Source: Rickettsiales bacterium
GTDB lineage: Bacteria > Pseudomonadota > Alphaproteobacteria > Rickettsiales > UBA8987
DNA: 41,332 nucleotides
Direction: 5' to 3'
NCBI GenBank assembly: GCA_033762595.1
Contig: JANRLM010000003.1
Location: 1 to 41,332 of the forward strand
The notes beneath the pieces were generated by a model. The model had not been told where the DNA came from. It was given only the letters and a program-made list of their open reading frames with translations, and did no database searches. The translations under genes were made by a program, and so were the position numbers. Positions 1,918 through 23,832 of this stretch are shown piece after piece. The first letter of the stretch is position 1. Each line of letters starts with the position of its first letter.

Positions 1918-3213
1918 ATGAAAATGTATTTTACTATAATATTTTTAATTTTATTTGCGTTTGATGCGAATTCTCAAACCTCAAGCAACCCAAATATCAG
2001 TAACATTAGAATTGATGGGAATTTTAACCCGGGCGGGTTGGGCGGAGAGCCAAATTTTGATGATAGAAGAAGGCCAAGTGCTAACCCAGAGAAAGCTCAG
2101 GATAAAAGTGAAATTATCAATCTTGAGAAGCAAAATGATGGCAACCAAGTAAAAATTATTCAAGCCGATAACCCCTTTGAGATTAAGCTCGGAAGCCAAA
2201 ATTCTAACCAGCCTGAAGTTATTAATGTTGATGAGAATGGTAATAGCCAAGTTAATCAAACGGAGAATTTTAAGCCGTTTAATAATTATGAATTTACTAA
2301 GGAAAACTTAGCAAAACCAGCCAATACTTACGGCACAGATAATTATAATAATCCGCAAAGTGAGTTATATCAAAGGGCTAAGAACCCTAATTTTATTGAT
2401 GCACAGCAACCCTCGCAAAAGTTTGAGGAGGTTAAGGAATCTTGCGATGACAGAAAGGAAATTTGTATAAAATATTTTATCTCGCCAGAGATTATTGTTT
2501 TTGAAGCAGCAAATAAATCGCCTACCACTAAAACAATTTCAATGATGATTTGGAATAGTAATTCTGTGCTGAAATATATGGTGAGAAGCCCAGAGAAAAT
2601 TATTTTGCGAGGTAAAGAAAATATAAAAATCGCTGAAATCTATGTTAATCAAAATGGTGAGGAAGCTAGCTTCAACTTCAATTTCAAGGCTACAGATGGG
2701 TTTATTGATGCTATTCACGATAATTCTTATGTTTATGCTTTACCGTTTGAGCCGGGCAAAACTTTTAAGATGATTCAAGGTTATGGTGGAAAGTTTTCGC
2801 ACACTGATGAAGAAAATTATTTTTCTTACGATTTCAGAATGCCAACCGGAACTCCTGTTTTCTCAGCTCGTGAAGGGGTGGTGGTGAAGGTGCGGGAATA
2901 TTACGCAGATGGTGGGCTTGATGCAAGGCTTAGGGAGAAATCTAATTTCGTTCACATTGAGCATGAAGATGGAACTATCGGAATTTACGCTCACTTGGCA
3001 AGGGGCGGTGCGAGTGTGAATATAGGTGATTATGTTCAGAAGGGGCAGATGATTGGTTTTTCGGGCAATACTGGCTATAGTGGCTCACCGCATTTGCATT
3101 TTGCGGTCGCAAAGGTGAAGAAGAACGGCAAGATGCAATCTCTACCGATAAGAATGCAAACCCAAACCGGTGTTTTTGATAGATTAAAGGAAGGCGAGTA
3201 TTTGGTTAGGTAG
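1918..3213 (+). CDS. Secreted M23-family peptidoglycan endopeptidase
   Basis: Start chosen at the ATG at 1918 (431 aa). It is followed by a short Lys, a hydrophobic stretch and ANSQ, a standard signal peptide. A longer frame from 1789 would place 43 unlikely residues before it and overlap selO. After export there is an Asn/Gln/Pro-rich low-complexity region (about residues 20-170), then a beta-rich segment, then a C-terminal LytM/M23 domain (about residues 300-420). Zinc-site features are visible: SHTDEE...YDF near the start of the domain, IYAHLARG in the middle and the hallmark HLHFAV near the end. Such proteins cleave peptidoglycan cross-links in the periplasm or act as activators of amidases. 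All metal ligands appear present, so an active enzyme is likely. Confidence 0.88.
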   Translation: MKMYFTIIFLILFAFDANSQTSSNPNISNIRIDGNFNPGGLGGEPNFDDRRRPSANPEKAQDKSEIINLEKQNDGNQVKIIQADNPFEIKLGSQNSNQPEVINVDENGNSQVNQTENFKPFNNYEFTKENLAKPANTYGTDNYNNPQSELYQRAKNPNFIDAQQPSQKFEEVKESCDDRKEICIKYFISPEIIVFEAANKSPTTKTISMMIWNSNSVLKYMVRSPEKIILRGKENIKIAEIYVNQNGEEASFNFNFKATDGFIDAIHDNSYVYALPFEPGKTFKMIQGYGGKFSHTDEENYFSYDFRMPTGTPVFSAREGVVVKVREYYADGGLDARLREKSNFVHIEHEDGTIGIYAHLARGGASVNIGDYVQKGQMIGFSGNTGYSGSPHLHFAVAKVKKNGKMQSLPIRMQTQTGVFDRLKEGEYLVR

Positions 3214-3215
3214 TT

Positions 3216-3324
3216 GGTTGATGGTTGATGGTTGATGGTCTTTGGAAAATATTCCTCCCCCTGTTTACGGGGGGAGGTTAGGTGGGGGGCTTGATTGGTT
3301 GATGGTTGATAGTTGATGGTTGAT
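3216..3324 (+). repeat. Two (GGTTGAT)n heptamer tracts flanking a GC-rich palindrome
   Basis: Three perfect GGTTGAT heptamers occupy 3216-3236. Four more (the third has A for the first G) occupy 3297-3324. Between them lies the GC-rich palindrome listed separately. The tract begins directly after the stop codon of the M23 peptidase gene and precedes the tail of the sulfotransferase gene. The same heptamer, on the opposite strand, occurs inside ubiG, and degenerate copies are found around ccoP/ccoQ. Confidence 0.85.
3254..3277. repeat. GC-rich hairpin (8-bp perfect stem), possible bidirectional terminator
   Basis: CCTCCCCC at 3254-3261 pairs perfectly with GGGGGAGG at 3270-3277 across an 8-nt loop. 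It lies between the convergent M23 peptidase and sulfotransferase genes, where a terminator would be useful, but no T-run follows. The G-rich tail (GGTTAGGTGGGGGG) beside it resembles dispersed intergenic palindromes seen in many alphaproteobacteria. It may therefore be a repeat element rather than, or as well as, a terminator. Confidence 0.6.
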
Positions 3325-6598: not shown

Positions 6599-6940
6599 AT
6601 GCCGATACAAATAACAACAATTTTGCTTCTTGTCGCCTCAAATATATTCATGACTTTCGCTTGGTATGGGCATTTGAAATATAAATCTGCCCCCCTCCTA
6701 TTAGTCATTTTTATAAGCTGGGCAATAGCTTTTTTTGAATATTGCTTGCAAGTACCTGCAAATAGGCTTGGTTCTAGCGTTTTTTCAGCAGTTCAGCTCA
6801 AAACCATACAAGAAATTATTACCCTGATTGTTTTTGCGGTTTTCTCAGTTTACTATCTGGGGCAGGAAATTAAGTGGAATCACCTGCTTGGCTTTCTTTT
6901 CCTTGTTCTTGCTGGGTTTTTCATCTTCAAAAAATGGTGA
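6599..6940 (+). CDS. DUF486 small membrane protein (DMT-superfamily-like)
   Basis: A 113-residue, strongly hydrophobic protein with four likely membrane helices (about residues 5-20, 30-48, 68-86 and 93-110). The segments FMTFAWYGHLKY, AFFEYCLQVPANRLG and LKTIQEIITLIVFAVFSV are characteristic of the DUF486 family, distant relatives of EmrE/DMT transporters. Function is not established for the family. The ATG at 6599 lies 23 bp from the divergent glycosyltransferase start, so the two genes share a very short promoter region. It is followed by the SRP RNA on the same strand. Confidence 0.85.
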   Translation: MPIQITTILLLVASNIFMTFAWYGHLKYKSAPLLLVIFISWAIAFFEYCLQVPANRLGSSVFSAVQLKTIQEIITLIVFAVFSVYYLGQEIKWNHLLGFLFLVLAGFFIFKKW

Positions 6941-7002: not shown

Positions 7003-7100
7003 CCAGTTGGTCGTAGGTGGACGGAAAACCCGCTAACCCGGACAGATTCGAAAGAAAGCACCCGTAACGGAATTTTTTCGGGTCATCTACGGCTAACTAG
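7003..7100 (+). ncRNA. ffs: Signal recognition particle RNA (4.5S-like), divergent
   Basis: The long outer arm is AGTTGGTCGTAGGTG..AC (from 7005) pairing with GTCATCTACGGCTAACT (7082-7098). The apical part has GCTAACCCGGACAGATTCG then AAAGAAAGCACCCGTAACGG. This follows the alphaproteobacterial SRP RNA domain IV layout (CTAACCCGGTCAGGTCC, GGAA loop, GGAAGCAGCCGTAACG). The closing helix has changed by paired substitutions from UCC/GGA to UUC/GAA, and the loop from GGAA to GAAA, still a GNRA tetraloop. Length (~98 nt) is normal for a small SRP RNA. It binds Ffh to target membrane proteins. The symmetric loop and its closing pair also differ from consensus, as described in the findings. Ends are approximate. 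Confidence 0.75.
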
Positions 7101-7117
7101 TTATTTGGGCTTAGGGT

Positions 7118-7218: not shown

Positions 7219-7932
7219 ATGAAATCAATAAACCCCCAAGAAATTGAGAAATTCTCTCGTATAGCTGATGAATGGTGGAATCCCAACGGCAAATTTAAGC
7301 CTCTGCACAAATTTAACCCCACTAGGCTAGAATATATTGTTAAAGTAATCTTTGAAAAACCATCAACCATCAACCATCAACCATTAACCATATTAGATAT
7401 CGGCTGCGGTGGTGGGTTGCTTTCAGTGCCTCTTGCAAGGCTTGGGGCGAAGGTTACGGGCATTGATGCTTCTGAAAAGAATATTCAAGTTGCCTCACTT
7501 TATGCGGAGAGAGAAGAGATTGAGATTGAGTATCTCTGTACCTCTGCGGAAGAATTATCCGCCCAAAATCGCAAATTTGATGTTGTGCTTAATATGGAAG
7601 TGATTGAGCATGTGGCAGATGTAGAATCTTTTATGCAAGCTAGTTGTAACCTTGTTAAAGAGGGTGGTTTGATTTTAATCGCGACGCTAAATAGAAATTT
7701 GAAATCCCTCGCTTTTGCAAAAATCGGGGCGGAATATATCTTAAATTGGTTGCCAAAAGGAACTCACGATTGGAATAAATTCTTAAAACCTTCTGAAATT
7801 CATAATCTATTGGAAACTAATAATTGCAAGCCTCTTGAAGCAAAAGGTGTAACTTACAAGCCATTCAAAGATAAATTTGAACTCTCAGATGATTTATCTG
7901 TAAATTATATGATTCTAGCAAGGAAGGGTTAG
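7219..7932 (+). CDS. ubiG: Ubiquinone biosynthesis O-methyltransferase UbiG
   Basis: A 237-residue SAM-dependent methyltransferase that carries out both O-methylation steps of ubiquinone synthesis. The N-terminus INPQEIEKFSRIADEWWNPN...PLHKFNPTRLEYI is the UbiG-specific lead. LDIGCGGGLLSVPLARLGA is SAM motif I, VTGIDASEKNI is motif II and FDVVLNMEVIEHV is motif III. THDWNKFLKPSEI is the UbiG membrane-associated insertion. The residues PSTINHQPLT just before motif I are encoded by a (ATCAACC)n heptamer tract, so a repeat is part of the reading frame here. The stop overlaps the convergent DUF1365 stop by 4 bp. All core motifs are intact, so it should be functional. Confidence 0.96.
   Translation: MKSINPQEIEKFSRIADEWWNPNGKFKPLHKFNPTRLEYIVKVIFEKPSTINHQPLTILDIGCGGGLLSVPLARLGAKVTGIDASEKNIQVASLYAEREEIEIEYLCTSAEELSAQNRKFDVVLNMEVIEHVADVESFMQASCNLVKEGGLILIATLNRNLKSLAFAKIGAEYILNWLPKGTHDWNKFLKPSEIHNLLETNNCKPLEAKGVTYKPFKDKFELSDDLSVNYMILARKG
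7362..7389 (+). repeat. (ATCAACC)n heptamer tract inside ubiG coding sequence
   Basis: Three perfect ATCAACC units (7362-7382) are followed by ATTAACC (7383-7389). This is the same heptamer family as the GGTTGAT tracts at 3216-3324, on the other strand. It encodes part of a variable linker between the UbiG N-terminal helix and SAM motif I. Confidence 0.85.
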
Positions 7933-9806: not shown

Positions 9807-11684
9807 TTACTCATCATTAAAAAATTTTCTTTTGGTTTTACCAAATTTATCATAAAATTCCCTATCTTCAACGGTAATGCCTTGTCCTGGAACTATAGTT
9901 GGCTTGATTAAAATAACAGTTTCAGTAAGGTTAGTCTTCTTAATTACGCTTTTGAAAGCATTGCCAAATAGAGGAATTGAGCTAATACCTGGAACGCCTT
10001 GATCAGTGTTTTCGCCTTTATCTTCAAGTAAGCCACCAATCATCATGACATCGCCACTTTTAGTGCGAAGAACTGTATCAAGCTCTTTCACTTCAACTAC
10101 TGGAATCCTAGAGTTAATTGCTGTTGAGCTATCTAGCCTATCTTTGATAAGAATTATACTTGGGTCATCAACTCTATCAGAAACTTTGGTAAGGGTAGGG
10201 CGAACATGCATTGTAATTTCATTTCTTTGCAGATCAATTGAAGGCTGGATTGTAAGAATCATACCGATTGGAACAGTTTTAATTTCACTTGAAATTGAAA
10301 CATTTCTATTATCAACGCCACCAATGCCAGAATTTGTTTGTTGATCACCAAGGGAAACAGTAAAGTAAACTTCGTTCTTAGAAAAATTTAGAACAGCAGT
10401 TTGGTTATTAAGGGTGCTTATTCTAGGGTTTGAAAGGGATCTTGTAACGCCAAAAAGCTGAAGTAAATTTACAGAGTTTTGTAGAGTATTTCCCTCATTT
10501 CCAAATAACTCAGAAGGTAAAACAGAAAACTTAAATATATCAGATGTAGCATTGCTTACATTATAATTTAAGTTTAGAGTACCTCCGTCAACAAAATTTC
10601 CCCCTGCTGTAACTAATGACCAATTTATACCTGATGAATATTCATCTTTAAGGCTTACTTCTACAACTTTAGCTTCAATTAAAACTTGGGAGGTCATTGA
10701 AATGTGAATGCTATCTAAAAATTCCTTTATAGCATCATGTTGTTTTTGATTTGCAAGAATTGTAACTATTCCTGCGTTTCTATTAGCTGAAAGAATTGAT
10801 GCACCATTTGGAGCAACCATTCCAGCCATACTCATTCCCATTCCTCCTGCACCACCCTGACCGCCTTGCATTCCACCACCCTGCATTCCACCACCCATCA
10901 TACCGCCCTGCATTCCGCCTGCTCCAGCTTGTTGTTGTATTCTTTTACCTTTTTCATCTCTTTGAACTTCTTGGCCATAAACATTGAGTATTTGGAAAAT
11001 ACCCATTTCTAAATTGCCCCAAAAATTACCATCACCGCCAGTGATAGTTAAATTGTTAGATGAACCACTATTTACTGATGCATTAGCACCGCCAGTTGCA
11101 CCACTGCCACCAACTGAAATACTTGCATTAACATTTGAGTTTGCGGTTCTGGTTATATCCAACATATTAAAACGATATGTTCTTACAAAAGGATAATCTT
11201 TAGTGATTTTTAGAACGCCATTCTCAAATTTATAGTTCAAATCAGCCATTTTTGCGATTCTTTCAATAACCTCAGAAAATGGTTTTTCGTGAGCGATAAA
11301 TATAATTTTACCATCAATATCTTGATCTATTTCAACATCAACCTCAGCTTTTCTGCATATTTCAAGCAGAACTTCTTTTAACGGAACATTTTCATTAACA
11401 GAAACAGAAACTAATTTGTTATTTTCTAATTCAAATTTCTTAGGGCTGGTTGTTAGATTTTTAATATCAGGTAACTTTAGAGTTGGCGATAATAAAGGCG
11501 GTAAATTTTTTTCTTTTTCGTTATCATTTTTAGGGCGTGTAATTTTCATATAATCTTCCCTGTCCAACTTGCGATAAGGGTCAATATAATCGCCCTTGTT
11601 TCTATCAAAATGCTTGCAAGAAGTTAAGAGGAGTGAGGCAAATAAGATATTTATTAATAATCTTTTCATCAAATTTTTTTTCAT
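9807..11684 (-). CDS. Outer-membrane secretin, MshL/PilQ-like lipoprotein
   Basis: A 625-residue secretin that would form the outer-membrane gate of a type IV pilus (MSHA-type) or type II secretion machine. The N-terminus is a lipoprotein signal with lipobox LLTSC. An STN/N0-like domain follows at about residues 95-165 (VPLKEVLLEICRKAEVDVEI). Next is a Ser/Asn/Gly-rich stretch, then a Gly/Met/Gln-rich linker made of MQGG-like repeats (about 255-290), then the secretin core (VLIEAKVVEVSLKDEYSSGI; MIGGLLEDKG; GVPGISSIPLFGNAFK). The STN-plus-secretin architecture without repeated N1-N3 domains matches MshL. Its neighbour upstream on the same strand is prepilin peptidase. Other pilus genes are not in the window. 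Confidence 0.88.
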   Translation of the reverse strand: MKKNLMKRLLINILFASLLLTSCKHFDRNKGDYIDPYRKLDREDYMKITRPKNDNEKEKNLPPLLSPTLKLPDIKNLTTSPKKFELENNKLVSVSVNENVPLKEVLLEICRKAEVDVEIDQDIDGKIIFIAHEKPFSEVIERIAKMADLNYKFENGVLKITKDYPFVRTYRFNMLDITRTANSNVNASISVGGSGATGGANASVNSGSSNNLTITGGDGNFWGNLEMGIFQILNVYGQEVQRDEKGKRIQQQAGAGGMQGGMMGGGMQGGGMQGGQGGAGGMGMSMAGMVAPNGASILSANRNAGIVTILANQKQHDAIKEFLDSIHISMTSQVLIEAKVVEVSLKDEYSSGINWSLVTAGGNFVDGGTLNLNYNVSNATSDIFKFSVLPSELFGNEGNTLQNSVNLLQLFGVTRSLSNPRISTLNNQTAVLNFSKNEVYFTVSLGDQQTNSGIGGVDNRNVSISSEIKTVPIGMILTIQPSIDLQRNEITMHVRPTLTKVSDRVDDPSIILIKDRLDSSTAINSRIPVVEVKELDTVLRTKSGDVMMIGGLLEDKGENTDQGVPGISSIPLFGNAFKSVIKKTNLTETVILIKPTIVPGQGITVEDREFYDKFGKTKRKFFNDE

Positions 11685-15979: not shown

Positions 15980-16079
15980 TCACCCCGCATTTATTGCGGG
16001 GTTAATGGTTGAAAGTTTTTCTAAGGCTCAAGTTAAGAGCTTGTTTTTATGGTTAACCCCGTGACAAGCACGGGGTGAC
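15980..16079. repeat. REPIN-like doublet of GC-rich palindromes
   Basis: The left arm TCACCCCGCATTTATTGCGG (15980-15999, continuing GG) and the right arm ACCCCGTGACAAGCACGGGG plus TGACA (to 16079) are each hairpins and lie in opposite orientation about a spacer of ~55 bp. The left inner flank is TTAATGGTTGAAAG and the right inner flank TTTATGGTTAACCCC. The reverse complement of the element at 23734-23832 has the same arms and the same inner flanks, while the mid-spacer differs. Located between the response regulator and the saccharopine-dehydrogenase-like gene. Confidence 0.8.
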
Positions 16080-23733: not shown

Positions 23734-23832
23734 GTCACCCCGCATTTATTGCGGGGTAAACCATAAAGTAACCACAAAACTTAGTTTTAGAAGAGCTTTC
23801 AACCATTAACCCCGCAATAAATGCGGGGTGAC
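23734..23832. repeat. REPIN-like doublet of GC-rich palindromes, second copy (inverted)
   Basis: GTCACCCCGCATTTATTGCG plus GGG at the left and CCCCGCAATAAATGCGGGGT plus GAC at the right are inverted copies of one palindrome, separated by ~55 bp. In reverse complement this matches the 15980-16079 element: same left arm, TTAATGGTTGAAAG, TTCTAA, and TTTATGGTT near the right arm. It lies between ccoP and ccoG. Confidence 0.82.

Follow-up and report, generated by a model that had tools for sequence, protein, structure and literature searches.

The ubiG gene of a bacterium of the order Rickettsiales contains four tandem heptamers that are probably one coding member of a family of ATHAACN quartets scattered across the genome, a sequence tolerated within proteins rather than an on/off switch. 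The tract lies in a stretch of 41,332 nt, hereafter the window, which comprises positions 1–41,332 of the forward strand of contig JANRLM010000003.1 (Rickettsiales bacterium, UBA8987; assembly GCA_033762595.1). The host genome, labelled G000, consists of 1.67 Mb in 124 contigs. Tandem Repeats Finder assigned a period of 7 to positions 7358–7391, with 4.9 copies and a 96% match, and the letters there read AACC(ATCAACC)3ATTAACC plus two more bases of the period. Three perfect units and one degenerate unit are in frame, as the first-pass annotation had described, and their peptide, PSTINHQPLT, is immediately N-terminal to ILDIGCGGG. The open reading frame (ORF) scored 286.9 bits against the UbiG profile (cut-off 102.95), and it is the sole ubiG copy found in G000, since the remaining matches of a UbiG search of that genome were weak (E 4.9e-5 and 7.8e-4). 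Within the window ATCAACC occurs 21 times against 4.5 expected, a count reached by none of 100 shuffles, and the G000 genome has 25 exact copies of its 14-mer against 1 for a reversed control. These two controls rule out a chance origin of the heptamer.

Table 1. Coordinates of the repeats, genes and RNA discussed for the window.
Feature	Position	Strand	Details
ubiG, intact, 237 aa	7219..7932	+	NCBIfam TIGR01983; AlphaFold2 model
ubiG heptamer quartet, ATCAACC x3 + ATTAACC	7362..7389	+	Encodes (PS)TINHQPLT
Intergenic arm, 4 units, ATCAACC x3 + AACTACC	3209..3236	-	Sequence
Second intergenic arm, 4 units: ATCAACC, ATCAACT, ATCAACC, ATCAACC	3297..3324	-	Same strand as first
CCCCCTGTTTACGGGGGG palindrome, between the two intergenic arms	3257..3274		Another dispersed family
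Hairpin element just upstream of ubiG, ~109 bp	7104..7212		Fold z -4.6
Small bacterial SRP RNA, lying between ubiG and the ORF at 6599-6940	7005-7101		Rfam RF00169, 47.3 bits
Perfect 15-bp tandem duplication (TGCATTCCACCACCC x2)	10867-10896		Inside secretin-like ORF 9807-11684

The heptamer had also been noted between genes, and both intergenic tracts (3216–3236 and 3297–3324, minus strand) are indeed present. The first-pass annotation proposed a genome-wide listing of ATCAACC tracts; this gave 39 clusters in G000 and revealed that the ubiG tract, which it had called a simple tandem repeat, belongs to a dispersed family marked by a four-unit preference, sharp edges and inverted pairs. The clusters comprise 80 places that match the 14-mer with no more than one mismatch, and the stretches around all 39, two of them from the window itself, were examined. 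Among 60 arms of at least two units, 32 have four units (28 bp, the commonest size), 8 have five, 6 have three and 14 have two, the last figure including five TTCAACC-ATTAACC matches that belong to another palindromic repeat. The difference between four units and three is significant (32 vs 6; binomial P ~1e-5). In the 46 arms of at least three units, which hold 186 units, positions 3 and 7 account for 114 of 139 departures from ATCAACC, with only C, A and T, and never G, at position 3; free variation being so confined, the unit can be written ATHAACN. The edges of the arms are sharp. On the left, 39 of the 46 arms have C at −2 but just 18 have A at −3, and on the right A occupies +1 in 35 of 46 and T occupies +2 in 13. 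The element is roughly CN(ATHAACN)4A, about 31 bp in length, and occurs either alone or as two inverted arms.

All 11 inverted pairs with arms within 60 bp have the minus arm followed by the plus arm, and none has the opposite order; two further neighbouring arm pairs, including that at 3209–3324 of the window, have both arms on one strand. Whole inverted-pair hairpins measure 59–95 bp. Ten pairs were folded, of which nine gave z values between −5.0 and −8.1 and one gave −2.4; the ubiG tract by itself has no such fold (z −1.1). The order of variant units is often unlike between the two arms of one pair.

Because the copies share a unit, sharp edges and a preferred size, they appear to have spread by copying rather than to have originated locally, and, as judged from one assembly per species, they may be mobile. 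It is unlikely that they are ordinary microsatellites, in which polymerase-favoured heptamers would arise locally by replication slippage and resemble one another through local composition. Such an origin would accord with accounts in which heptamers are the commonest long repeat unit in many bacteria and slippage is the proposed cause (MacGregor, 2015, PMC4679880; Rehm et al., 2015, PMC4692102), and long pure arrays of similar type do exist in other genomes (G752, G784, and 34 units in G068). However, a single heptamer family recurs here at 39 clusters, and a monotone slippage distribution is not expected to produce a peak at four with so few threes. The restriction of variation to positions 3 and 7, the sharp edges and the uniform order of the inverted pairs argue in the same direction.

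ORFs contain 18 of the 39 clusters. The carriers are UbiG, CysN and CysD (both with N-terminal tracts, which may lie before the true start), PDH-E2, SucB, PurM, an acyltransferase, TruB, TrmD, TilS, IleRS (two clusters), a TrxB-like reductase, PyrF, DnaE, a glycosyltransferase, a NifS-like cysteine desulfurase and CysH. In all 18 coding clusters ATCAACC is on the sense strand. The (ATCAACC)n repeat translates as INHQPST in all three frames, and for perfect repeats the sense orientation is forced because the complement has TGA in every frame. The codon phases of 17 coding tracts that were tested are distributed as 8, 5 and 4, and a complete hairpin is read in frame in the reductase and glycosyltransferase ORFs. 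Insertion is evident in PyrF and TrmD, the two carriers compared with solved structures, and not in ubiG: at the tract PyrF is longer by 10 residues (30 nt net) and TrmD by 6 (18 nt net), while the UbiG loop is within the normal range. Relative to 11 relatives, the extra residues at the TrmD tract number 6 (nine relatives), 5 (one) or 3 (one). These unequal net lengths imply that not all coding copies are clean insertions of 30–31 bp. The IleRS ORF, of 1393 aa (L184:271-4452, G000:C90), was also observed to contain an in-frame DUF559 at residues 253–358 (PF04480, E 2.6e-40) and several palindrome-derived stretches in frame (TPPPVYGGRQGGG, APTLTLPRKRE).

The first-pass annotation regarded the ubiG tract as a potential slip site, at which the gain or loss of units could turn off or alter the gene, and which as a phase-variation switch would act reversibly. 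Its arithmetic is correct, since a 7-bp unit shifts the frame and one unit gained or lost would truncate the protein, the downstream alternative frames stopping after 1 and 24 codons. Heptanucleotide tracts have, moreover, been reported or proposed in phase variation of Haemophilus influenzae (PMC2651432). Such a switch, possible in principle, is nevertheless very improbable here, and no sign in its support was found. The H. influenzae tracts, as given in that source, mostly have 13–38 units (one has 1–7), against three perfect units and one degenerate unit in ubiG. The 17 other coding clusters are mostly in housekeeping genes, and the reading frames of all carriers, UbiG, DnaE, IleRS, TrmD, TruB and the E2 proteins among them, are open. 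Arm sizes peak at four, and a family-mate of G000, G004, keeps the four-unit length in its own UbiG loop with another heptamer. For comparable repeats, Rehm et al. (PMC4692102) likewise thought phase variation unlikely.

In the AlphaFold2 model of UbiG (mean pLDDT 91.9) the tract spans the coil between a helix (residues 27–46) and a strand (residues 57–62). An alignment of 110 loci indicated that the loop ahead of the first SAM-domain strand is variable in length, and that the G000 loop, which has 6 residues more than that of Escherichia coli UbiG, is not above many others. Its length lies inside the alphaproteobacterial range, so comparison with relatives did not bear out the suggestion that the linker is a plain insertion. 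In G004, whose UbiG is 54% identical to that of G000, the same loop is encoded in the same codon phase and at the same length by ACCGACC x3 + ACTGACT, giving PTTDHRPLT, and ACCGACC is itself dispersed in the G004 genome, which has 15 exact copies of its 14-mer against 1 for the control. UBA6187 (L057), which has been termed an Athabascaceae MAG of a deep Rickettsiales clade (PMC9352585), has a GGGANTN-type quartet with an inverted partner in frame in its UbiG loop, and the DNA of this loop is identical in G052. The same UbiG loop thus holds a different heptamer family in each of three lineages. In G002, G003 and G005, the remaining family members with UbiG, the loop is ordinary. The consensus loop, PLxGLxILDIG, has a Pro-Leu whose retention as QPLT in G000 and RPLT in G004 would explain the degenerate fourth unit. 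The annotation had named conservation of the linker and its codons in relatives lacking the heptamer elsewhere as evidence against its reading; no such case was seen among the aligned loci, where the only other loop tracts seen are those of G004 and UBA6187/G052, both with dispersed heptamers genome-wide.

These observations suggest how a dispersed quartet family could have come to be read in ubiG. The family has probably spread through intergenic DNA, singly or as inverted pairs, and has entered protein genes in the one orientation that is stop-free in every frame. Coding copies survive in loops, linkers and N-termini, where their net length preserves the frame. In UbiG the tract sits in a naturally variable loop before SAM motif I as an INHQPST-like spacer, with a presumably neutral effect on the enzyme. 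Coding repeats in many conserved enzymes, together with the UbiG loop and its three heptamer families, would offer a natural series for the gain of protein linkers from selfish or slippage-born DNA, found in the same order as the coding palindromes of Rickettsia.

Of 343 genomes of the order, 24 contain the exact ATCAACC 14-mer, and only G000 and G004 have more than one copy. A general quartet, AYHRACN x4, matched 21 of the 343 genomes, although the reversed-pattern control was also nonzero (G316, 75; G061, 18; G312, 14; G000, 8) and its matches outnumber the forward matches in several genomes. Among the matches listed, the quartet is present at two or more separate places in ten genomes (G000, G004, G052, G024, G258, G301, G305, G312, G324 and G001). 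Outside G000, arrays of at least four units in the order have exactly four in 29 of 36 cases, four being the floor of the search pattern. Across the class, 5 of 385 genomes match, G000 and four others; in two genomes of the class outside the order, G752 and G784, the matches listed consist of one long array each. A separate genome search matched three other genomes, with other heptamers, and viral contigs contain at least 120 stretches with AYCRACC x3. G316, with 75 matches to the reversed control and 1 to the forward pattern, probably has a heptamer family of its own. At one locus of G068 (L353), 34 ACTGACT units form a lone array, a genuine long microsatellite that contrasts with the quartets.

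A broader and more speculative proposal, to which we attach only a small probability, is that deep-branching Rickettsiales harbor a class of miniature mobile elements built from heptamer quartets (A-Y-H-R-A-C-N), the heptamer differing from lineage to lineage. An unrecognised copying process, with a register of seven bases built into it, would insert them at new sites, protein genes included; copying of this kind would suit a short-template polymerase. The process itself, and not G-quadruplex formation, would then determine why there are four units.

Literature searches, made partly on titles and the beginnings of abstracts, did not find the ATHAACN family in print or any papers linking Rickettsiales and heptanucleotide repeats. 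The family is intermediate between three kinds of described repeat, and the closest of these are the four-unit heptamers GGGAATC and GGGGA(C/T)T that Rehm et al. (2015; PMC4692102) described in Xanthomonas, with a similar family in Nostoc. As those authors present them, these repeats share with ATHAACN a 7-bp unit with two free positions (GGGANTN in their case), a four-unit preference, a chromosome-wide distribution, convergent inverted pairs and many metabolic genes nearby, with no mobile-element link in either set. The share in ORFs differs, being 18 of 39 clusters here, in frame through conserved enzymes, compared with the 7–11% given for the Xanthomonas and Nostoc repeats. Rehm et al. tied the four-unit preference to G-quadruplexes. 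The ATHAACN unit has no three-G tract and is unable to form the G-quadruplex of those repeats; with no arm containing CCC and only a minority keeping GG in four units, the G-quadruplex explanation for four units cannot be general, and the present family separates that preference from it. It is highly improbable, too, that the heptamers form a functional array in which the units act as binding sites or RNA structures (for a regulator, a G-quadruplex or the control of translation) and have coding copies as by-products. In favour of such an array, five of the seven unit positions are conserved, the intergenic pairs fold strongly, and TAACTGA repeats were proposed by MacGregor to regulate translation (PMC4679880). 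Against it, copies are located within ORFs, at the ends of genes and in intergenic DNA alike, the ubiG copy lacks a fold of its own, and a G-quadruplex element was rejected with CCC in 0 of 40 arms of at least four units and GG in at least four units in 12 of 40.

The TAACTGA direct repeats of Beggiatoaceae (MacGregor, 2015; PMC4679880) are likewise dispersed heptamers, some of which are read through ORFs in a stop-free orientation, but the heptamer is different and, in the account given there, the ORF copies are mainly near the ends. The resemblance to Rickettsia palindromic elements (RPEs) that the first-pass annotation had pointed out is apt, in that a repeat is read in frame inside conserved protein genes. 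Both kinds of element occur in Rickettsiales and form a hairpin when both arms are present. RPEs, compared here by description, are palindromes of 105–146 bp (Ogata et al.; reviewed in PMC2229807), whereas the ubiG copy is a single heptamer arm of 28–31 bp and the ATHAACN hairpins are below RPE size.

REP/RAYT elements are short dispersed palindromic units of 20–40 bp in intergenic DNA. The ATHAACN elements are also short dispersed units, but a mobility of the REP/RAYT type was rejected, as no Y1 (RAYT-type) transposase (PF01797) was present in G000 or G004; it was found in 5 of 14 control genomes.

The window holds other repeats besides. The palindrome between the two intergenic arms occurs at 58 places in the genome with up to three mismatches, compared with 0 for its control, and some of its copies seem to be read in frame, in IleRS and CysH. 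In the hairpin element upstream of ubiG, which is RPE-like in size, GGGCTTA / CTAACCC-like heptamer arms flank a TGTCATTCTGAG...AGATGACA palindrome. At 15982–16079 and 23798–23832, TTCAACCATTAACC adjoins CCCCGTGACAAGCACGGGG / CCCCGCAATAAATGCGGGG palindromes, which constitute a further dispersed family, and the 14-mer recurs on other contigs as well.
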